Part shown: one piece after another, positions 14,437 to 44,676 of the stretch
Position numbering within the stretch: the stretch's first letter is position 1
Layout: every line of letters begins with the position of its first letter
Source of the DNA: Vicinamibacterales bacterium
Lineage (GTDB): Bacteria > Acidobacteriota > Vicinamibacteria > Vicinamibacterales > UBA2999
Assembly (NCBI GenBank): GCA_030680175.1
Contig: JAUXWO010000022.1
Location: 1-49,163 of the forward strand
Reading direction: 5' to 3'
DNA length: 49,163 nucleotides
The notes under the pieces: model-generated
Databases searched by the model: none
Told to the model about the DNA's origin: nothing
What the model saw: only the letters and a program-made list of their open reading frames with translations
Position numbers and translations under genes: made by a program

Positions 14437-14478
14437 GGAGGACCGCCCCCCGGCGGCCTTTCCGTGGTGAGACGAACG

Positions 14479-16581
14479 ATGAACCGAACCGTTGCGCCCC
14501 TGCTGCTGACGCTGGTGGCGCTCGCGGCCGTGGCGCCCCTCCGTGGACAGGGACAGCCCGCCGCCGAGGCGCCGCAGCCGCCCGTCACGTTCCGCGCCGA
14601 GGTCAACTACGTCGAGGTCGACGCCCGCGTCTTCGATGCGCAGGGCCAGTTCGTGGCCGGCCTCTCCGAGGGCGATTTCGAGGTGCTCGAGGACGGCAAG
14701 CCGCAGAAGGTCACCGTCTTCTCGCTCGTCAACATCCCGGTCGAGCGCGCCGAGCGGCCCCTCTTCGCCGCCGCCCCCATCGAGCCGGACGTCCAGAGCA
14801 ACACGCGCGGCTACGACGGCCGCGTCTACCTCATCGTCCTCGACGACCTGCACACCCATCCGCTGCGGACCGTCCGCGTGCGCCAGGCGGCGCGCGAGTT
14901 CATCGAGCGGTTCGTCGGCGCCAACGACGTGGCGGCCGTCGTCCACACCAGCGGGCGCGGCGACGCGGGGCAGGAGTTCACCTCCAACCCGCGGCTGCTG
15001 CTCGCCGCCGTGGACAAGTTCTCGGGGCGCAAGCTCCGCTCCGCGACGCTCGAGCGGCTCGACATGGAGTACATGACGCGCAACCAGCGGCAGCAGGGCG
15101 AGCGCGTCGACGACCCGGCGTCGTTCGAGCGCGGGCACCAGGCGCGGAGCGCGCTCCAGACGGTCAAGAACCTTGCCGACTTCATGGCGGGGGTGCGCGG
15201 CCGGCGCAAGGCGATGGTCCTCTTCAGCGAGGGCATCGACTACGACATCACCGATCCGTTCACCAACCAGGACGCGACGATGATCATGGATGCGACGCGG
15301 GACGTCATCGCGGCGGCCACGCGCGCCAACGTCGCGATCTACGGGGTCGATGCCCGGGGCCTCGCCTCCGCCGGTGACGAGTCGATCACGGTGGGGGCGT
15401 TCCCCGACGATCGGTCGCTCGGCATCGACAGTTCGTCCCTGCAGAACGAGGTGCGGCTCGGGCAGGACAGCCTGCGCGTCCTCTCCGACGAGACCGGCGG
15501 CTTCGCCGTCGTCAACCAGAACGACCTGCGCAGCGCGTTCCGCCGGCTCGTCGACGACAACAGCTCGTACTACGTGCTGGGCTACTACCCGGCCAACGAC
15601 CGGCGCGACGGCCGGTTCCGGCGCATCGACGTGCGGGTGGCCCGGCCGGGGATGACCGTGCGCGCGCGCCGCGGCTACGTGGCGCCGCGGGGCCGCGCGC
15701 CGGCCGACACCCGCATGACGCTGCCCGGCGGCGCGCCCTCGGAGCTGCGCGACGCGATGAGCAGCCCGATCCCCGTGTCGAGCCTGCCGGTCTCGGTGAA
15801 CGCGGTCGCCTTCAAGGGCCCGCGCCCGAACGCCGTCATCGCCCTGTCGATTCTTCTCGACGGACGCGACCTGGCGCTCGTCGAGAAGAACGGGGTGCTG
15901 GTCAACGACATCGATGTCGTGGCGACGGCCGTGAACTACCAGGGCAAGATGTTCCCGGGCGACCGGAGCACCGTGAACCTCCAGCTCAAGCCCGACACGG
16001 CGGCGCGCGTCCGGGCGGCCGGCTTCCGCGTGCTGACGCAGATCGCGCTGCCGCCGGGGCGCTACCAGCTGCGCGTGGCCGCCAGCGAAGCCAACGGCAA
16101 GCGCGCCGGGTCGGTCCTCTACGACCTCGACGTGCCGGATTTCGACCGCGAGCGCTTCTCGATGAGCGGCCTGGCGATCACGTCGATCTCGAGCAGCGTC
16201 GCGCCGAGTGCACGGCAGAACTACCCGCTGAACGACCTCCTGCCGGGGCCGCTCTCGACGCTGCGCGAGTTTCCGGTCGGCGACGAACTGGCGATCTTCA
16301 CCGAGGTCTACGACAACACCGCCGCCACGCCGCACAAGGTCGACATCAGCGCCGTGCTGAAGGCCGACGCGGGTCCGACGGTGTTCCAGACGAGCGAGGA
16401 GCGCGACAGCTCGGAGTTGCAGGGCCGCGCCGGCGGCTACGGGTTCGCGGCGCGCATTCCCCTCGGGGACGTGGCGCCGGGCCTCTATCTGCTGCGCGTC
16501 GAGGCCGCCTCGCGCGTGGGCAACCAACCGCCCGTCGCGCGGGAAGTGCTGTTCCGCGTCGTGCCGCGGCCGGCGCCGTAA
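14479..16581 (+). CDS. Secreted VWFA-domain protein, acidobacterial type
   Basis: The 700-residue protein has a signal peptide (PLLLTLVALAAVAPLRGQ) and the FRAEVNYVEVDARVFDAQG opening of the VWFA-related family expanded in Acidobacteria. The metal-site strand reads YLIVLDDLHTHPL, so the canonical DxSxS motif is replaced by DDLHT. This may alter cation binding, or may be usual for the family. Later parts include the VWA core end (YYVLGYYPANDRRDGRFRRI) and two beta-rich segments with no recognised motif. Function is unknown, presumably protein-protein contacts in the envelope. The ATG was chosen over two GTG codons upstream because it starts the signal peptide. The PrcB-like gene follows after 21 bp. 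Confidence 0.82.
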   Translation: MNRTVAPLLLTLVALAAVAPLRGQGQPAAEAPQPPVTFRAEVNYVEVDARVFDAQGQFVAGLSEGDFEVLEDGKPQKVTVFSLVNIPVERAERPLFAAAPIEPDVQSNTRGYDGRVYLIVLDDLHTHPLRTVRVRQAAREFIERFVGANDVAAVVHTSGRGDAGQEFTSNPRLLLAAVDKFSGRKLRSATLERLDMEYMTRNQRQQGERVDDPASFERGHQARSALQTVKNLADFMAGVRGRRKAMVLFSEGIDYDITDPFTNQDATMIMDATRDVIAAATRANVAIYGVDARGLASAGDESITVGAFPDDRSLGIDSSSLQNEVRLGQDSLRVLSDETGGFAVVNQNDLRSAFRRLVDDNSSYYVLGYYPANDRRDGRFRRIDVRVARPGMTVRARRGYVAPRGRAPADTRMTLPGGAPSELRDAMSSPIPVSSLPVSVNAVAFKGPRPNAVIALSILLDGRDLALVEKNGVLVNDIDVVATAVNYQGKMFPGDRSTVNLQLKPDTAARVRAAGFRVLTQIALPPGRYQLRVAASEANGKRAGSVLYDLDVPDFDRERFSMSGLAITSISSSVAPSARQNYPLNDLLPGPLSTLREFPVGDELAIFTEVYDNTAATPHKVDISAVLKADAGPTVFQTSEERDSSELQGRAGGYGFAARIPLGDVAPGLYLLRVEAASRVGNQPPVAREVLFRVVPRPAP

Positions 16582-17779: not shown

Positions 17780-18421
17780 TCAGAACCTTCCATGCCCGGC
17801 GTGCTCGTCGGTGAACACCACAGCACCGGTCGAGGAGATGCACACCTCTGTGACGCTACCCTTGGCCATGCCGAACGCAACGTTCCATCTGTTGTACGAA
17901 ACAAGCTTCGCGAGGCCGTCGCTTGAAATACTTGCTCTGGTCGGCTGTCCTAGCTTGGCTGTGATGTCCGCTTCCGAAGAGTACCGCCCTAGGCCGAACA
18001 CGCGGGAGGAGCCGGTCTGGTCACACACAATTACAGCTGCGAGGGCGTCGGGGCTTGGACCCGTGAACAACACGGTAAGGGCTTTGTCGCTGTGGCTTTC
18101 CTTAAACCACCAAAATAGCGAGGACTTGCCGTCACGTGTCTCAGGACTGGCCGTCGCATCGTTGTTGGGTGCTCCCTTGAGCAGCTTCACTTCAACGGTC
18201 GTCATCCCGAGGCGCACGCCCTCGAGTTCTTCGACGACCACTGGGCGAGCCTTGTAGCTAGACCACGCCCACCCACCGGCCACAACAGTCGCGAGGAGAA
18301 GGACGACTCCGGCGCACACCTTCCCTACGAGCGCCCATTTCCTTCTTGTCGTGACGTGGTAGACGCCCACGACCAGGAGCACCAACACGGTCGAGAAGAA
18401 GATCCCGCTGCCTACGCTCAC
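17780..18421 (-). CDS. Unrecognised membrane protein, two TM helices plus exported domain
   Basis: The 213-residue protein has two hydrophobic segments near its start (GIFFSTVLVLLVVGVYHV and VGKVCAGVVLLLATVVAGGW). The following domain includes LEGVRLGMTTVEVKLLKGAP, whose G-M-T-x-x-E-V-x-x-x-x-G-x-P pattern recalls SmpA/BamE-like repeats. A second G-Q-P copy occurs in ADITAKLGQPTRASIS. The start is GTG with GGAG 8 nt upstream; the upstream in-frame sequence to 18703 lacks coding character. The gene sits in an AT-richer island, suggesting transfer. Function unknown. Confidence 0.6.
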   Translation of the reverse strand: MSVGSGIFFSTVLVLLVVGVYHVTTRRKWALVGKVCAGVVLLLATVVAGGWAWSSYKARPVVVEELEGVRLGMTTVEVKLLKGAPNNDATASPETRDGKSSLFWWFKESHSDKALTVLFTGPSPDALAAVIVCDQTGSSRVFGLGRYSSEADITAKLGQPTRASISSDGLAKLVSYNRWNVAFGMAKGSVTEVCISSTGAVVFTDEHAGHGRF

Positions 18422-18669
18422 CGTGGTGTCTCCATGCTCTTTGGGACAGATGCCGGTCCGGGGATACGGCGTCGTACGGCGCCGAAAGACCTTCCCCGGC
18501 AATGCCAGCTGTGCGGCACCGGCCGCAACATAGCACGGGCGCTCAGAGGGCCAACGGGGGCGAATCGGAAGGCGAAACCGACAATGAGATCCATAGAAAA
18601 ATGCACAAGGTAAACTGTTGAAAACAAACAGGTTACCTGGACAGTTTATTCTGCAATGTTCAAGGCGTA

Positions 18670-18861
18670 ATGCTACGATCTCTAGGGTCAGAGCGACCTT
18701 CAATGGACTTGGACTTCCTCAAAGCGGGCGTTGCGCTCATCGGAGTGGTGACGGTAGTGCAACTCCTTCTCGGTGAGTTGCTGGAGGCGGTTAAGAGAAC
18801 GCTGGTACTGTGCGCGGCCTTTGTGAAGTGGCTGCGCACCGACTTCCGAGACCTGTTGTAG
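18670..18861 (+). CDS. Small single-pass membrane protein, unrecognised
   Basis: The predicted 63-residue product contains one hydrophobic helix (AGVALIGVVTVVQLLLGELL) followed by a basic tail (KWLRTDFRDLL). An alternative ATG at 18703 gives 52 residues and keeps the helix. AAGG upstream of the first ATG is only a weak ribosome-binding site. It precedes the two-TM protein gene by 20 bp and is divergent from the gene ending at 17780. Such a small ORF could occur by chance, but the helix, spacing and orientation support it. Confidence 0.4.
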   Translation: MLRSLGSERPSMDLDFLKAGVALIGVVTVVQLLLGELLEAVKRTLVLCAAFVKWLRTDFRDLL

Positions 18862-18881
18862 ATCACGTCACGTGCGACCGC

Positions 18882-19529
18882 ATGGATGAGCCATCTCTGC
18901 CTGGGACCCCGACCGAGTTTGCGCGTCTGTGGCTCCGGGTCGCGTTTCCGAAGGCTTGGGCGTCGCTGGGAGCGATCCTAGTCGTGCTCGGCGTGGCATC
19001 GCTGTACGTCAGCACGAATCATCGGGATTGGAGCGAGAGGCTGAGCGACCTCGGATGGCAACTTGCACTTGGAGTGTTCCTGCTGGTGTTCGTCTTCCGA
19101 ACGTTCGTGGCTCCGTACGAGATCTATAGGAGCCTCAAGATTGACCGCGACCGGCTACACGCCGTGGTAGACACCAAGCGCAAGAACCAAGCGGTAGCGG
19201 AGAGGCTATTAGCGCTCTACCAGTCCGGCACGCATGACGTGGCGAACATGACGGTAGATCCACACTACGCGGAGGATCGCCTCAAGTTTGGTAAACACGC
19301 TCACGACTGGCTGACCAGCCTTAGGAGTGAGATGCTTGCTTGCGAATGCTTGCCCCAAGAGCTCAGCGCCGTAACCGATTTCAGTGCGGCTGATATTCCA
19401 GATCCAGCGTCTCTCGGGTATCTCTACCCCGGCAATCCTGTAATAGCTCTCGAGAAGGCTCAATTCGCAATGCGGTTGAGAGCATTGAAGCGCGTGATCA
19501 ACAGCTACTCCGAGTACAACGTCCTATGA
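18882..19529 (+). CDS. Unrecognised two-TM membrane protein with cytoplasmic helical domain
   Basis: The 215-residue protein has a short N terminus, two membrane helices (ASLGAILVVLGVASLYVS and LGWQLALGVFLLVFVFRTFV), and about 140 cytoplasmic residues. The cytoplasmic part starts with a charged helix (IYRSLKIDRDRLHAVVDTKR). No catalytic motif is visible. Two-TM proteins with helical cytosolic domains are frequent among uncharacterised accessory and defence genes, but nothing here proves such a role. The start MDEPSLPG is preferred by position after the small ORF; no clear Shine-Dalgarno sequence is seen. It lies in the AT-richer island. The gene end is followed within 12 bp by a CACGAAG-like repeat remnant. 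Confidence 0.6.
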   Translation: MDEPSLPGTPTEFARLWLRVAFPKAWASLGAILVVLGVASLYVSTNHRDWSERLSDLGWQLALGVFLLVFVFRTFVAPYEIYRSLKIDRDRLHAVVDTKRKNQAVAERLLALYQSGTHDVANMTVDPHYAEDRLKFGKHAHDWLTSLRSEMLACECLPQELSAVTDFSAADIPDPASLGYLYPGNPVIALEKAQFAMRLRALKRVINSYSEYNVL

Positions 19530-19540
19530 CGCGTACGTCC

Positions 19541-19585
19541 AGCCTGTTGTTCGTGTTCGTGCAGCACGTTCGTGGTTCGCGACGG
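19541..19585. repeat. Remnant of the CACGAAGG repeat family
   Basis: The stretch has TTCGTGTTCGTGCAGC and ACGTTCGTGGTTCGCG phrases resembling the right-arm units of the elements at 4240-4449 and 35219-36024, without intact ends. It fills most of the 78-bp gap between the two-TM gene and the zinc-ribbon gene. Confidence 0.4.
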
Positions 19586-19607
19586 GATGGAGGCGGGGTT
19601 TGAACCC

Positions 19608-20069
19608 TTACATCTCGCCGTTCCAGTCCTCAGGCTCGGCGGCGATGGACCGGAAGATTTCCAGGTGCCATTTGCCGCCGCCCCAGGGCTCGATCACCTC
19701 GGTGGCGACCACGTCGACCAGGATCTCGGCAAAGGTCCGGCCTTCCGGGTCCCCGTCGAGGTGATAGGCCGGCTCATCCCAGTCGAACGTCGGGTAGAGC
19801 ACCAGCGTCAGGAACAGGTCGTACCCGTCGTCGACCACCAGGAGCTGGCCGCACGGGCGCTTCTGGGTGGAGTGGTAGATGAGGTATTTCTCGGCGCTGT
19901 GGGCGCGGATGTAGCGCTTGAGGGCGAACTCCCGCGCGACGACCTCTTCCACCGCGATCTTCTTGTCCCAGCAGTCGCGGCAATACCGCTCCTCGCCGCG
20001 GGGCTCGGAGACTTCTTTGGCGCCACAGAGCGCGCACTTCTGCTTGTTGGCGATCGACTTGCGGGACAT
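19608..20069 (-). CDS. Zinc-ribbon protein of unknown function
   Basis: The 153-residue protein begins with a likely zinc ribbon, Cys11-x2-Cys14 and Cys30-x2-Cys33 (CALCGAKE, YCRDCWDK). A compact alpha/beta domain follows (YLIYHSTQKRPCGQLLVVDD, FDWDEPAYHLDGDPEGRTF). I do not recognise the family. Hydrophobic segments and a signal peptide are absent, so it is probably cytoplasmic. It is convergent with the preceding membrane-protein gene and divergent from the M28 gene. ATG start; the region before it runs into an 8-bp tandem repeat. Confidence 0.6.
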   Translation of the reverse strand: MSRKSIANKQKCALCGAKEVSEPRGEERYCRDCWDKKIAVEEVVAREFALKRYIRAHSAEKYLIYHSTQKRPCGQLLVVDDGYDLFLTLVLYPTFDWDEPAYHLDGDPEGRTFAEILVDVVATEVIEPWGGGKWHLEIFRSIAAEPEDWNGEM

Positions 20070-25163: not shown

Positions 25164-26303
25164 ATGCGACTGGGGCTGATGCTGGTGATGTGCGCGACGG
25201 CGCTGGCGGCGGCGCAGGGCGACGGCCGCCCGCGCGCGCGGGACATCGGGCTGGCGCCGGGCGTGTTCGCGCCCGGCCCGCTCAACGCGATCACGGACGT
25301 GGACGGCGTGCGCGTCGGGCAGGTCACGCTCGTCGAGGGCGACCGCGTCCGCACCGGCGTGACCGCGATCCTCCCGCACGGCGGCAACCTGTTCCAGGAG
25401 AAGGTCGCCGGCGCCGTGTTCGTCGGCAACGCCTTCGGCAAGCTGGCCGGGTCCACGCAGGTCGGGGAACTCGGCACCATCGAGACGCCCATCATCCTGA
25501 CGAGCACGCTCAGCGTGGCCGCGGGCATCGAGGGCGCCGTCTCGTGGACGCTGGCGCAGCCCGGCAACGCCGAGGTGCGCTCGGTCAATGCCCTCGTCGG
25601 CGAGACCAACGACGGCGGGCTCCACGACATCCGCGGACCGCACGTCACCGCGGCGCATGTGCGCGAGGCGATCGACGGCGCGCGCGGCGGTCCCGTCACG
25701 GAGGGCAGCGTCGGCGCCGGCACGGGCACGCGCGCGTTCGGCTGGAAGGGCGGCATCGGCACCTCCTCGCGGCGGCTCGACGCGCGCTACGGCGGCTACA
25801 CCGTCGGCGTCCTCGTGCAGTCCAACTTCGGCGGGGTGCTCACGATGGCGGGCGCCCCGGTGGGGCAGGCGCTCGGCCGCTACGCGTACCAGCCGCCACC
25901 GGGCGGCGGTGACGAGGACGCGGGCGACGGCTCGTGCATGATCGTCGTCGCGACCGACGCCCCGCTCGACGCACGGGACCTCCAGCGCCTGGCCGCGCGT
26001 GCGATCTTCGGCATGGCGCGGACGGGGTCGTCGTTCAGCAACGGGAGCGGCGATTACGCGATCGCCTTCTCGACCGCGACGGGCCTGCGTGTCCGCGGCG
26101 GCGCGACCTCGGCGGTGTCACGCCCCGTGCTGCCGACGGACCTGGTGTCGCCGCTCTTCCAGGCCGTGCTCGAGGCCACCGAGGAAGCGATCTACAACTC
26201 GCTCCTGAAGGCCACGCCCGTGACGAGCGCCGTGGGCACGGCCGAGGCGATCCCGATCGATCGCGTGCGCGAGGTGCTGCGGCGGCATCAGGTCGTGCCG
26301 TAG
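25164..26303 (+). CDS. Exported P1/S58-family (DmpA-type) aminopeptidase
   Basis: The 379-residue protein belongs to the self-cleaving DmpA/BapA N-terminal nucleophile family. Family motifs include NAITDVDGVRVGQVTL near the start, LVGETNDGGLHDIRG, and DGSCMIVVATDAPLDARDL. Gly256-Ser257 would be the autocleavage site, freeing Ser257 as the nucleophile. A short signal peptide (LGLMLVMCATALAAAQG) suggests export, whereas several studied members are cytoplasmic. The ATG follows GGGAGGGC. Its 3' end overlaps the convergent PLP-enzyme gene by 16 bp. It probably releases N-terminal D- or beta-amino acids or ordinary residues from peptides. Confidence 0.88.
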   Translation: MRLGLMLVMCATALAAAQGDGRPRARDIGLAPGVFAPGPLNAITDVDGVRVGQVTLVEGDRVRTGVTAILPHGGNLFQEKVAGAVFVGNAFGKLAGSTQVGELGTIETPIILTSTLSVAAGIEGAVSWTLAQPGNAEVRSVNALVGETNDGGLHDIRGPHVTAAHVREAIDGARGGPVTEGSVGAGTGTRAFGWKGGIGTSSRRLDARYGGYTVGVLVQSNFGGVLTMAGAPVGQALGRYAYQPPPGGGDEDAGDGSCMIVVATDAPLDARDLQRLAARAIFGMARTGSSFSNGSGDYAIAFSTATGLRVRGGATSAVSRPVLPTDLVSPLFQAVLEATEEAIYNSLLKATPVTSAVGTAEAIPIDRVREVLRRHQVVP

Positions 26304-27331
26304 CCGAAACGCTTCTCCGCCGCCGGCGTCATCGACAACCCGCCGGTGTGCAGGAAGAGGACGCGCGCGCCCTGCGGGATCCGGCCGTCACCGACGAGGG
26401 TCGTCAGGCCGGCGAACGCCTTCGCGGTGTACACCGTGTCGAGGAAGTAGCCTTCGGTCGACGCCATCCGCCGGATCGCGGCATCGCTGCCCGCGTTTGG
26501 CACGCCGTACCCTTCCTCGGCGCAGCCGTAGACGATGTCGTGCACGCTGATCGCATCGGGCGCGAGGTCCAGCCCGAAGTGCGCGACGGATTCATCGAAG
26601 AGCTGGCGGGGCGGGCGCTGGCCGAAGGCCTCCGCCGACGCCCGGTTGGTGATCGCCACCGGATGCACGCGCGCGGTGAAGCCCCCGAGCGCGAGCCCGA
26701 GCAGGACGCCCGTGGTCGTCGATCCCGTGCCGAAGGCCAGCACCACGTCGTCGAAATCGAACCGGCCCGCGCGCTGGCGCGCGATCTCGGCGATCGCGCT
26801 CATGTAGCCCGGCTCGGCCTGCGGCATCGTCCCGCCCGCCGGCACGAAGTACCCGTCGGTCGCGGCGGTCACCTCCGCGCACAGCGCCTCGACGCGCCGG
26901 GCGTCGGCGGCCGTGGGCGCCGTGAAGTCCATCGGGCAGAAGTGGAGCGTGGCGCCGAGGTAGTCGAGCAGCAGGAGGTTGCCGCTCCAGTCGCGCGCGC
27001 GATCGGGCGCTGTGCCCGCCACGACGCAGTGGATGTCGAAACCGGCCCGGCGCGCCGCCGCCGCCGTCATCATCGTGTGGTTCGAGGTGAGCGGCCCGAC
27101 GGTGACGATGGTGCGCGACCCGCGCGCGCGGGCGTCGGCCAGGATGAACTCGAGCTTGCGCGTCTTGTTGCCGCCGATCGCGAGTCCCGACACGTCGTCG
27201 CGCTTCATCCAGAGATCGATGCCGAGCTCGGCGCCGAGGCGTGCGAGCGGGACGAGCGGGGTGGGAAAGGCGCCGAGCCGGACGCGGGGCAGGCCGGCGA
27301 GGAATTGCAGCAGCGTCTCGAGCGTAGGCAC
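26288..27331 (-). CDS. D-cysteine desulfhydrase/ACC deaminase-family PLP enzyme
   Basis: The 347-residue fold-type II PLP enzyme has MKRDDVSGLAIGGNKTRKLE, where the lysine of GGNKTRK binds PLP. GPLTSNHTMMTAAAARRAG and FGTGSTTTGVLLGLALGG follow. These match D-cysteine desulfhydrase and 1-aminocyclopropane-1-carboxylate deaminase relatives; which substrate is used cannot be told here. The start is GTG (PTLETLLQFLAGLPRV). It shares 16 bp of 3' end with the S58 peptidase gene, which releases amino acids, and lies 35 bp after the histidine kinase gene on the same strand. Confidence 0.82.
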   Translation of the reverse strand: MPTLETLLQFLAGLPRVRLGAFPTPLVPLARLGAELGIDLWMKRDDVSGLAIGGNKTRKLEFILADARARGSRTIVTVGPLTSNHTMMTAAAARRAGFDIHCVVAGTAPDRARDWSGNLLLLDYLGATLHFCPMDFTAPTAADARRVEALCAEVTAATDGYFVPAGGTMPQAEPGYMSAIAEIARQRAGRFDFDDVVLAFGTGSTTTGVLLGLALGGFTARVHPVAITNRASAEAFGQRPPRQLFDESVAHFGLDLAPDAISVHDIVYGCAEEGYGVPNAGSDAAIRRMASTEGYFLDTVYTAKAFAGLTTLVGDGRIPQGARVLFLHTGGLSMTPAAEKRFGYGTT

Positions 27332-27366: not shown

Positions 27367-28476
27367 TCAGGACGCGCCGGAGGGCGCCACGGGCAGCCGC
27401 AGGTGGAACGTGCTGCCGGCGCCCGGCGCGCTCTCGACCTGCAGCCGGCCGCCATGCGCCTGGGCGATGGCGAATGCCGTCGCGAGGCCAAAACCGCTGC
27501 CGCGCGCCCCCTTCGTCGTGAAGAACGGGCGGAAGAGCTGCGCCAGGACGTCCGGGGCCATGCCGCAGCCCGTGTCCCGGACCGTGACGTCGTGGACGTC
27601 GGGGTCCGAAGTGATGCCGACCGTGACCACGCCGGCGTCCTCGATGGCATCGATGCCGTTGCGCACGAGGTTGAGCACCACCTCGCGCAGCTCGCTCGGC
27701 ACGCCACGCGTCCAGGCCGGCGTCTCGCACGCGGTGAGCCGCACCTCGACCGTCGCGCCGCGCGCCTCCCGCGCCTCCACGACCCACGGCAGCGCCCACT
27801 CCGCCGTCGCCGTGACGAGCGCGCCGAGGTCCACGGGGGTGAAGGCGGCCGGCACCGACTGCCGCGCGATCACCTGGCGCATGCGCCGCACGATGTTCGT
27901 GCCGTCCGCCGCGGCATCGTGAATCGTCGTAATGTGCGCGCGGAGGCTGTCTGGCAGCTCGTCGAGGAGCAGCAGCTCGCTTGTGCCGCGGATCACCTGG
28001 AGCAGGTTGCCGAAGTTGTGCGACACGCCCGCCGCGACCTCGCCGAGCTCGCGGAAGCGCTCGGCGTCGAGCACGCGCGATCGCAACTGGTCCTGCTCCG
28101 TGAGGTCGTTGACGGCGATCAGGCAGAGCGGCCGGCCCTGGTGCTCGAACGGGGTGAGCGTGACCTCCACGTCGCGCGGCCCATGCCGGAGCGGAAAGTG
28201 GAACTCGAACCGGGCCGTCTCGTGACGCCGCGCGACCAGGGCGTCGAAACGCCCCTGGAAGCTCGCGACCTGCGTGCAGGGGGCGACCGTGGTGAAGAAG
28301 TTGCGGCCGAGCACGTCGTGGCGCCGCCGGGCGGCGATGTGCTCTTCGCGTTCGTTGTAGAAGAGGATCTCCCCCGTCATGTCCACGACGATGATGCCGT
28401 AGGGCAGCAGGTCAAGGGTCCGGAAGTCGAGGCTCGGGCCCGGCGGCGTGATGGGGAGGGCGTGGGCAGTCGCCAT
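27367..28476 (-). CDS. Histidine kinase with photoactive-yellow-protein-like PAS sensor
   Basis: The 369-residue protein has a single N-terminal PAS domain and an NtrB-like kinase core. No transmembrane helix is present, so it is cytoplasmic. The PAS domain contains GRNFFTTVAPC, very close to the chromophore-cysteine region of photoactive yellow protein (PYP). Counting without gaps, Tyr40, Glu44, Arg50 and Cys67 fall where PYP has Tyr42, Glu46, Arg52 and Cys69; Thr50 is replaced by Ala48. The kinase part has the H-box VSHNFGNLLQVI (His153), N-box LVRNGIDAI (Asn273), DTGCGM, and GSGFGLATA. No response regulator is adjacent; a receiver protein lies 10 kb away. Light sensing through p-coumarate is inference. 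A redox or ligand-sensing PAS is the alternative. Confidence 0.85.
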   Translation of the reverse strand: MATAHALPITPPGPSLDFRTLDLLPYGIIVVDMTGEILFYNEREEHIAARRRHDVLGRNFFTTVAPCTQVASFQGRFDALVARRHETARFEFHFPLRHGPRDVEVTLTPFEHQGRPLCLIAVNDLTEQDQLRSRVLDAERFRELGEVAAGVSHNFGNLLQVIRGTSELLLLDELPDSLRAHITTIHDAAADGTNIVRRMRQVIARQSVPAAFTPVDLGALVTATAEWALPWVVEAREARGATVEVRLTACETPAWTRGVPSELREVVLNLVRNGIDAIEDAGVVTVGITSDPDVHDVTVRDTGCGMAPDVLAQLFRPFFTTKGARGSGFGLATAFAIAQAHGGRLQVESAPGAGSTFHLRLPVAPSGAS

Positions 28477-28567
28477 GGGTGTTCGTCGCGCCCCGGGGCC
28501 GCGGCTCCCTGACGTAATCGGCGCCGTCGGCGGGGGCTTGAATGGCGCCCGGGATGCCAGGGACGGC

Positions 28568-28633: not shown

Positions 28634-28719
28634 GCGGAAGTGGCGGAATGGCAGACGCGCTAGCCTCAGGAGCTAGTCCGGGCAACCGGGTGGAGGTTCG
28701 AGTCCTCTCTTCCGCACCA
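28634..28719 (+). tRNA. tRNA-Leu (anticodon CAG)
   Basis: The 86-nt gene folds as a class II tRNA. The acceptor stem is GCGGAAG with CTTCCGC. The D-arm is TGGCGGAATGGCAGACGC, and the anticodon arm CTAGCCTCAGGAGCTAG contains CAG. A variable arm and the T-arm GGAGGTTCGAGTCCTC follow, and the terminal CCA is encoded. A terminator follows at once. The 3' 22 nt are repeated twice downstream. Confidence 0.95.
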
Positions 28720-28966
28720 AATGACAGGCCAACCCACGGGTTGGCCTTTTCATTTTGGTGCGAAAGCGAGACTCAGCCACTCAGCCGTCGCGCTTCGCGC
28801 TCGGCCTGGAGGGGTCGAGTCCTCTCTTCCGCACCACTCATTCGGCACATGCCTCATTCGCGGCGCGGCAGAGGGCCTCAGGCACCCGGTCGTCGCGCTT
28901 CGCGCTCGACCAGGGGCTCGAGTCCTCTCTTCCGCACCAAATGACAGGCCGACCCACGGGTTGGCA
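28698..28966 (+). repeat. Tandem copies of the tRNA-Leu 3' end
   Basis: The 22-nt T-arm/acceptor segment TCGAGTCCTCTCTTCCGCAC(CA) occurs three times: inside the tRNA (28698-28719), at 28815-28836 and at 28918-28939. Copy 3 also repeats the downstream terminator sequence, so 28698-28744 and 28918-28964 form a 47-bp direct repeat with one mismatch. Copies 2 and 3 are each preceded by GTCGCGCTTCGCGCTCG (28787-28803 and 28892-28908), giving a unit of about 104 bp. No other gene is visible between the tRNA and yhbY. The arrangement resembles an attachment-site remnant or a local amplification. Confidence 0.8.
28727..28753 (+). terminator. Intrinsic terminator of tRNA-Leu
   Basis: GGCCAACCC and GGGTTGGCC form a stem of at least 8 bp with a CACG-type loop, followed by TTTTCATTTT. 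It starts 8 nt after the CCA end. A decayed copy without the T run occurs at 28947-28964. Confidence 0.85.
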
Positions 28967-43623: not shown

Positions 43624-44676
43624 ATGGCTCTGTCCCAGGGTGCCCGTCCCGATCTGGCCGCGCGCCTGCGCGAGGGCCAGCGCGCCCTGCGGGGGCGCCT
43701 GGGCCGCGCCGACACGCAACTCGCGATGATGCGCGCGGCGCATGAGACGCTGGACCCCTCGGAGATCGGGGAACTGGTGGTGGACCACGCCTCTGCGTGG
43801 CTGCCTGCCAGCCCCTGCGCCGTGGTGGCGCCCAATCGCGAGGGGCACATCGACGTGCTGGCCAGCCGGGCCGTGCCGGCCGCGCTCGCCGAGCCTGCCG
43901 TCGCCATCGGGCGCTGGGTCCTGCGCCATGAGCGCGGCTTCCTGACCGCCGATTTGCGGCAGGACGGCCGCGTCACGGCGCCCGCGGGGGCGGCGCTCGG
44001 GTGGCCGCTCCGGTGCCGCGGGCGGACGGTCGCGGCGCTCGTGATCGTGGATCGGACCCCGGCCACCGCGGAACCGCGCATCACGGCGGGCGTCGGACAG
44101 GCGCTCGACGAGGTGCTGTCGGGGCCGGCCGTGGCGCTCGACAACGCCCTGACCGTGCAGCGCGCCGAGGCGCTGTCGGTCACCGACGACCTGACGCAGC
44201 TCTACAACTCGCGGTACATGAACCAGGTGCTGCGACGGGAGACCAAGCGCGCCTCGCGTAGCGGCCGGCCGCTGTCGTTCCTGTTTCTCGACCTCGACGG
44301 GTTCAAGGGCGTCAACGACGTGCACGGCCACCTGGCGGGCAGCCAGGCCCTCGTCGAGGCGGCCGTCGTGATTCGCGGGTCGGCCCGCGAGACCGACATC
44401 GTCGCCCGCTTCGGCGGCGACGAGTTCGCGCTCATCCTGCCGGATACGGGCAGCGAGGGCGCCGCGGCGGTCGGCGAACGTATCCGGGAGCGGCTGGCGG
44501 CGCACACGTTTCTCGCCGACGACGGCCTGGCCTTGCGCCTGACGGCCTCGGTGGGGGTCGCGACGCTGCCGGATGTGGCGGCCTCGGCTGAAGAACTGGT
44601 GCGAGCGGCCGATATGGCGATGTACCGGGTGAAGGCCGCGGGCAAGGACGGAATTCACGTGGCGGTCGGGGACTGA
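43624..44676 (+). CDS. Diguanylate cyclase with N-terminal GAF-like domain
   Basis: The 350-residue protein makes cyclic di-GMP. The N-terminal 175 residues form a GAF-like domain (LVVDHASAWLPASPCAVVAP, GWPLRCRGRTVAALVIVDR). The C-terminal GGDEF domain has DDLTQLYNSRYMNQVL, FLDLDGFKGVND and the intact active site RFGGDEFALILP (residues 264-268). The inhibitory site RxxD (RETD, 255-258) is present at the standard five-residue spacing, so product inhibition is expected. There are no membrane helices. The ATG follows a same-frame TAG directly. The gene lies 83 bp before mreB on the same strand, which may link c-di-GMP synthesis to expression of the shape operon. Confidence 0.9.
   Translation: MALSQGARPDLAARLREGQRALRGRLGRADTQLAMMRAAHETLDPSEIGELVVDHASAWLPASPCAVVAPNREGHIDVLASRAVPAALAEPAVAIGRWVLRHERGFLTADLRQDGRVTAPAGAALGWPLRCRGRTVAALVIVDRTPATAEPRITAGVGQALDEVLSGPAVALDNALTVQRAEALSVTDDLTQLYNSRYMNQVLRRETKRASRSGRPLSFLFLDLDGFKGVNDVHGHLAGSQALVEAAVVIRGSARETDIVARFGGDEFALILPDTGSEGAAAVGERIRERLAAHTFLADDGLALRLTASVGVATLPDVAASAEELVRAADMAMYRVKAAGKDGIHVAVGD

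Follow-up and report, generated by a model that had tools for sequence, protein, structure and literature searches.

Genes and features at the locus

The window analysed here, a 49,163-nucleotide stretch of DNA from a Vicinamibacterales bacterium, carries on its reverse strand an open reading frame at 27367–28476 that starts with ATG and encodes a sensor histidine kinase of 369 amino acids, exactly as a preliminary description of the sequence had stated. The G+C content of the frame by codon position (0.73/0.49/0.94) follows a coding-like pattern within surrounding DNA of 70% G+C. An equal-length open frame overlaps it on the forward strand (27403–28512), as is common at 70% G+C, but there is next to no probability that the reverse-strand frame is a pseudogene or was wrongly called, a reading already contradicted by the codon-position composition, the full-length homologues in two other genomes, the intact kinase motifs and the pLDDT of the structural model described below.

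The protein, all of whose features are encoded on the reverse strand, combines PYP, HisKA and HATPase modules. Its N-terminal PAS input domain (residues 15–125; 28102–28434), which Pfam PAS matches at residues 20–118 with about 39 bits, is assigned here to the photoactive yellow protein (PYP) family on the basis of the TIGR02373 profile, PDB matches, predicted fold and a tree. Alignments and the model place a DLT motif and coiled-coil linker at residues 124–152 (28021–28107), leading into the HisKA/DHp helix pair (residues 144–201; 27874–28047; model helices 125–169 and 176–204), which Pfam HisKA scores at 25.8 bits, slightly below its cut-off of 26.9; the two homologues score 27.3 (L038, above the cut-off) and 24.1 (L159, below it). 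The HisKA match and alignment with ZraS and FixL predict His153 (28018–28020), in the H-box VSHNFGNLLQ, as the phospho-acceptor. The catalytic domain (residues 259–364; 27385–27702) matches HATPase_c at 89.7 bits (E 2e-25, cut-off 26.4) and contains, as spotted by eye, what we take to be the N, G1, F and G2 boxes.

No phytochrome module was found in the 369-residue protein, with zero Pfam matches to GAF or PHY at E values up to 1. A full-chain AlphaFold2 model (mean pLDDT 87) has a PAS fold, a continuous helix at 125–169, a second DHp helix and an ATPase domain, so that, in the model, one helix joins PAS to DHp at the place where Ppr has its bacteriophytochrome module. The highest mean hydrophobicity over 19 residues is 1.42 and lies within the PAS domain; because a strongly hydrophobic stretch is absent, a membrane span is unlikely and the kinase is probably soluble. 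The early characterization of the protein as a soluble NtrB-like kinase lacking the bacteriophytochrome part thus agrees with what we find, an NtrB/FixL-like kinase, with solubility graded as probable. On this reading, the gene specifies a compact, probably soluble sensor kinase of the two-component type, with a genuine PYP-family domain as its input.

No response regulator gene lies beside the kinase gene. On its downstream side, 35 bp away and on the same strand, is a gene for a PLP enzyme related to D-cysteine desulfhydrase and ACC deaminase (26288–27331, reverse strand), which may be co-transcribed with it. The enzyme scores below the curated cut-off of all eight NCBIfam models listed for it, its close relatives (E up to 1e-60) occur in only 2 other genomes of the 40 searched, and we know of no link between an enzyme of this kind and PYP. 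The other side of the kinase gene is occupied by a divergent tRNA-Leu(CAG) gene (28634–28719). None of the neighbouring genes of the window was seen beside the kinase homologues in their two genomes (G149 and G549). A response regulator in the surroundings of the two homologues was considered as a conserved partner and rejected: it lies 5.2 kb (L053, confirmed by Pfam) and 3.6 kb (L195, recognized by eye) from the homologous kinase gene, near lepA and non-adjacent.

Further observations concern the rest of the window. Within 28695–28965, the last 22 nt of tRNA-Leu(CAG) recur with zero mismatches at 28815–28836 and 28918–28939, and the second copy additionally repeats the sequence immediately 3′ of the tRNA gene; the repeats have the look of degenerate tandem copies of the tRNA or of former integration sites. 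We dropped the idea of a horizontal-transfer signature at the tRNA, as the kinase gene and the repeated ends lie on opposite sides of it. The segment 17780–19529 is possibly acquired DNA: codon composition in its open reading frames is atypical, and its G+C content is lower (60% in 18001–20000, compared with 68–73% alongside). At 43624–44676, a gene for a GGDEF diguanylate cyclase, in which GAF matches slightly below the cut-off, is situated upstream of an apparent mreB-mreC-mreD group (names assigned by eye).

Membership of the input domain in the PYP family

The domain scores 74.8 bits (E 6e-21) with the NCBIfam photo_yellow profile TIGR02373 and 39 bits with Pfam PAS, so that the lead over the best general PAS model is about 36 bits. 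In a phmmer comparison with the PDB, the first 33 sequences are all PYP or Ppr, including the PYP-derived FAST, with E values of 1.2e-15 to 8e-11, and the next match has an E value of 0.0029; the top match is the PYP domain of Ppr (1mzu). Similarity to PYP runs without a gap across residues 16–107, or about 90 residues. In this gapless alignment with Halorhodospira halophila PYP, Tyr40 (28357–28359) corresponds to Tyr42, which hydrogen-bonds the chromophore phenolate, Glu44 (28345–28347) to the proton donor Glu46, Arg50 (28327–28329) to Arg52 and Cys67 (28276–28278) to Cys69, which carries the p-coumaroyl thioester, all four on the reverse strand. The spacing first noticed by inspection therefore holds, with the GRNFFTTVAPC segment matching GKNFFKDVAPC of PYP, and the likeness as a whole far exceeds chance, as the profile E value indicates.

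The conserved chromophore pocket described by Dohmen et al. (PMC12826048) consists of Ile31, Tyr42, Glu46, Phe62, Val66, Ala67, Pro68, Cys69 and Phe96. By alignment, all nine residues are present in the domain, whereas 12 ordinary PAS domains from kinases have between none and three of them; among 15 further conserved PYP positions, 12 match. The preliminary description held that only the Thr50 equivalent was changed, which is right for the hydrogen-bonding residues that it named and wrong elsewhere. Differences from H. halophila PYP also include Phe28 to Tyr26, Tyr94 to Phe92, Asp97 to Pro95, Met100 to His98, Gly86 to Arg84 and Trp119 to Leu. Tyr94, Met100 and Trp119 affect PYP photochemistry (PMC9664959, PMC12826048), and the replacement of all three counts against reading the protein as a light switch. 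The Ala at position 50 (Ala48; 28333–28335, reverse strand) is not a deviation, because Ala is the published PYP-family consensus there (PMC12826048); of the 32 PYP loci of the phylum, 22 have Ala at this position, 9 have Ser and 1 has Thr.

The score of 74.8 bits falls short of the 143 bits set as the curated cut-off for TIGR02373, as does that of every PYP in 396 genomes of the phylum, none of which passes; the cut-off, which a Caballeronia PYP clears with 185 bits, is an annotation threshold rather than a defining trait and catches about 20% of PYP homologues according to Xing et al. (PMC9664959). The same authors, in 2022, delimited the family by homology together with Cys69. The domain has the Cys69 equivalent, those of Tyr42 and Glu46, PYP-specific sequence similarity and a PYP-like predicted fold. 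In the domain model (pLDDT 86.9), natural PYPs fit at Z scores of 17.8–18.8 and r.m.s.d. values of 1.3–2.5 Å, ahead of the PYP-derived FAST (Z 16.3) and nanoFAST (15.2) and of the best non-PYP PAS domain (14.3); a Foldseek search with the same model returned PYP, Ppr-PYP and FAST in places 1–38. As far as the fold is concerned, the predicted structure is thus that of PYP, as the initial reading of the pocket would lead one to expect.

A competing account would see here an NtrB-like kinase with an ordinary PAS domain that senses a ligand and in which one segment has come to resemble PYP by convergence. The domain's usual D-L-T ending and ordinary linker length fit that account, as do matches to Pfam PAS and PAS_4 above the gathering threshold (true of published PYPs too) and a tree in which the split between PYP and generic PAS domains is only moderately supported (79/95), with long generic branches. 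Against convergence stand the gapless similarity and the lead of TIGR02373 over every general PAS model, the nine pocket residues where ordinary domains have at most three, the modelled fold that lies nearer to PYP, and the nine non-PYP matches in 396 genomes, which reach at most 38 bits with TIGR02373. We regard convergence as very unlikely and already contradicted. Together, these results confirm that the PAS domain of the kinase is a genuine PYP-family domain with a complete pocket.

PYP loci in the phylum and beyond

A search of 59 genomes with the full-length protein was discarded, since all 59 matched and other histidine kinases dominated, and PYP-only profiles were used afterwards; the best non-self match listed in that search (8.9e-41) spans only the kinase part, and the others reflect general PAS-kinase likeness. 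A pattern search of genome contigs with the kinase core gave 103 loci, the best 80 of which match chiefly in the linker and H-box, and the PYP profile found nothing in 11 genomes drawn from those loci.

In 396 genomes of the phylum, TIGR02373 gave 23 matches in 21 genomes at 77–114 bits and nine further matches in nine genomes at 28–38 bits, with a gap between the two groups. None of the nine low-scoring matches (L042–L050), which were excluded from the locus count, combines the Tyr, Glu and Cys. One of them, at 1501–1770 of L046 (G385), lies in a 139-residue frame and scores 30 bits; this distantly PYP-like protein has a GRDFFRDIGGC segment that puts a Cys where PYP has Cys69, and it lacks the Tyr42 and Glu46 equivalents. 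Samples of 162 genomes of the order and 77 genomes of the family of G149 contained 2 and 24 PYP-bearing genomes, respectively. The total, including the window, came to 32 PYP loci; the equivalents of Tyr42, Glu46 and Cys69 are present in all 32, which were picked by PYP profiles and are thus biased towards conserved pockets.

Judged by their frame length and Pfam matches, 22 of the 32 loci are of single-domain size (frames of 121–189 codons). Three are PYP kinases: that of the window, L038 (G149) and L159 (G549). A V4R domain lies C-terminal to PYP in two (L161 and, slightly below the Pfam cut-off, L032), an EAL domain lies N-terminal to PYP in three (L021 and L140 by Pfam, L162 by eye), and one PYP lies in a long frame (L024). 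The three EAL phosphodiesterases with a C-terminal PYP have no phytochrome match. Table 2 of PMC12826048 gives EAL–PYP fusions with PYP at the N terminus only, and the order EAL then PYP may be unlisted in that paper. In L052, a C-terminal PYP (14458–14799, reverse strand) belongs to a frame of about 430 residues, the first 300 of which have no Pfam match at E values up to 0.001.

The two homologues of the window kinase, from two genomes of another family in the phylum, are full length and share its architecture, with identities to the window protein of 44–46% and 43% in full-length alignments. All three compact kinases keep all nine pocket residues, so that homologues with the kinase and without the Tyr/Glu pair or the Cys, which would have spoken against the assignment, were not seen. 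The tree groups the three in a single clade (100/99), which falls with the PYPs rather than with the generic PAS domains. The fusion is rare, occurring in 1 of 162 genomes of the order, and a second draw of 396 genomes of the phylum, with PYP in 20 genomes that were mostly repeats of the first, added no further PYP kinase.

PYP was matched in none of 64 genomes of the phylum that includes a Latescibacterota-labelled record. In Pseudomonadota, the phylum of a Herminiimonas record, 4 of 398 genomes had a PYP match (up to 11 candidates scored per genome), and none of the four is a compact PYP kinase. One of them (L198) is a frame of about 900 residues with eight of nine pocket residues, and another (L200) is short. 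The other two (L199 and L201), also frames of about 900 residues, have lost the equivalents of Glu46 and Cys69, in the manner of published methylobacterial Ppr cases. With Glu46 and Cys69 gone in two of the four matches, the pocket is evidently lost from some PYP domains carried by large proteins. Among 72,556 plasmid records, five matched, and annotation and frame length identify none of these as a compact PYP kinase; no relatives of the kinase were found in viral contigs. Myxococcota are stated in print to be the phylum richest in PYP.

Chromophore supply, proposed light signalling and significance

PYP requires p-coumaroyl-CoA. The source genome (5.0 Mb in 143 contigs, estimated to be 100% complete) was searched with profiles across all contigs for tyrosine ammonia-lyase (TAL) and the PYP-type coumarate ligase (pCL), neither of which was found, and the earlier remark that both genes are missing from the window extends, as judged by these profiles, to the whole assembled genome. 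The sole Lyase_aromatic protein is HutH, which scores 684 bits against the HutH cut-off of 539, has the loop RSHAAGVG and adjoins an apparent urocanate hydratase gene. The best match to the ligase profile TIGR02372 is 57 bits; as a positive control, the ligase encoded beside the Caballeronia pyp scores 291 bits, itself below the curated cut-off of 334.7. In three genomes with a single-domain PYP (G084, G119 and G130), tentatively taken to be Geothrix-like, one lyase apiece was found and no ligase scored above 50.3 bits.

Each of the two genomes with homologous kinases (G149 and G549) has a second lyase that adjoins a ligase scoring 133 and 125 bits, respectively, with the PYP coumarate-ligase profile. 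These loci (L196 and L197) are apparent aryl-polyene-type clusters, as judged by eye, and their aromatic lyase has a YHGCGLG loop. We dropped a tie between this TAL-like/ligase pair and PYP in view of the aryl-polyene-type context and of a genome (G545) that has the pair and no PYP match.

In the survey by Dohmen et al. (PMC12826048), 5% of pyp operons contain TAL and 32% contain pCL; the authors suggest uptake of the chromophore or enzymes encoded elsewhere. Because so few surveyed operons contain them, the absence of TAL and pCL beside pyp is the rule. Gaps between contigs or enzymes of broad specificity could possibly account for the missing genes. As judged from the assembled genome, the failure to find chromophore genes lowers the probability of a photoreceptor function, which we still regard as likely.

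Several known kinases help to frame how a signal might travel. The window kinase resembles YF1, a LOV–FixL chimera, and FixL-type kinases in overall size and in the order PAS, linker, DHp and CA, but their inputs are a flavin-binding LOV or a haem-binding PAS domain. When phmmer aligns the window kinase with YF1 (4gcz), a single gap separates the two from the DLT motif to the phospho-acceptor His; it is exactly seven residues long, or one heptad, and makes the window linker the shorter. Linker length is identical in the three PYP kinases and in nine of ten ordinary PAS kinases, the tenth being seven residues longer; a fixed linker length was accordingly dropped as a special mark, being the common short form. 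With the full-length model, the lowest Foldseek E values belong to the LOV histidine kinases SB2F1 and YF1, in a loose fit (TM 0.34–0.57). In YF1, linkers of equal heptad phase reportedly retain the sign of the response, and light is said to lower net kinase activity. Because the linker of the window kinase is in the FixL/YF1 heptad register, light would, by analogy, lower its net kinase activity as well.

The observed family membership, complete pocket, conserved architecture and kinase motifs lead us to propose a route for the signal; its chromophore, photochemistry, direction and target are what we infer for this kinase. Most likely, p-coumaroyl-CoA would acylate Cys67, and Tyr40 and Glu44 would hold the phenolate of the chromophore. 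Blue light (about 430–465 nm) would isomerize the chromophore, which Glu44 would then protonate, and the ensuing partial unfolding would reach the DHp helices by way of the DLT motif and coiled-coil linker. This would alter both the autophosphorylation of His153 and the phosphotransfer, with a response regulator encoded elsewhere as the presumed target. A HisKA score slightly under the cut-off and the presence of the fusion in a single genome of the order are points against this reading. On balance, we favour as likely a compact kinase with a PYP input that is switched by blue light through p-coumaroyl on Cys67, and from its sequence the protein is probably a blue-light switch.

It is rather unlikely, if still to be reckoned with, that the domain is a PYP by ancestry that has lost photoreception, either working as an apoprotein or sensing another ligand, redox state or thiols through Cys67. 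The failure to detect TAL and the PYP-type ligase in the assembled genome would agree with such a loss, and neofunctionalized PYPs have been discussed and proposed for some methylobacterial Ppr proteins (PMC9664959); the two Pseudomonadota proteins without Glu46 and Cys69 point the same way. However, the full pocket has been kept in three compact kinases despite identities of only 43–46%, the methylobacterial redox candidates lose Cys69 whereas the window kinase keeps Cys67, and absence of the chromophore genes is usual, as the operon survey (PMC12826048) indicates. Given that no enzyme to produce or activate the chromophore was found, a more specific version of the blue-light kinase, which we consider improbable, is a coincidence detector that would be loaded only with imported plant p-coumarate activated by a general CoA ligase. 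If true, its response to blue light would be conditional on plant phenolics, which would give this acidobacterium a light-AND-coumarate gate.

Set against known systems, the blue-light kinase proposed here is of modest novelty. The preliminary description saw an unexpected lineage and a changed position 50; part of this is already in print. Dohmen et al. (2025, PMC12826048) describe 15 shorter proteins in which an N-terminal PYP precedes a histidine kinase/HATPase_c or HATPase alone, separate them from the phytochrome-containing ones and propose blue-light input to a response regulator. By that published description, they share domain order and a Cys69-bearing PYP with the window kinase. PYPs of Acidobacteriota are published there as well (2.4% of 984), so both the compact design and its PYP input in this phylum had been reported, and the Ala at position 50 agrees with the consensus of the family. 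Ppr of Rhodospirillum (Rhodocista) centenum likewise has an N-terminal PYP feeding a histidine kinase; it differs by the bacteriophytochrome module between the two, where the window kinase has a short helix, and by Ser at position 50 (PMC12826048) in place of Ala. H. halophila PYP shares the nine pocket residues, the gapless alignment of about 90 residues and the PYP fold, but it is a single-domain protein whose operon includes TAL and pCL, whereas the window has a kinase fusion and neither gene was found; its Tyr94, Met100, Trp119 and Thr50 are replaced in the window domain. We found no literature linking photoactive yellow protein with Geothrix, and the literature matches listed for Vicinamibacter, Luteitalea and Holophaga do not mention it. 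What is new here is a small, well-supported clade of PYP kinases, its rarity in the order and the undetected chromophore genes.

As natural history, the locus presents a compact PYP kinase that is rare among its relatives, in a genome without an obvious chromophore pathway. PYP is among the best-studied photoreceptors, and its signalling is mostly obscure as its partners are separate or elusive. A direct fusion of PYP to a histidine kinase in 369 residues, in the heptad register of YF1, is a handy object for studies of how PYP controls a kinase, and the protein is a possible optogenetic part.
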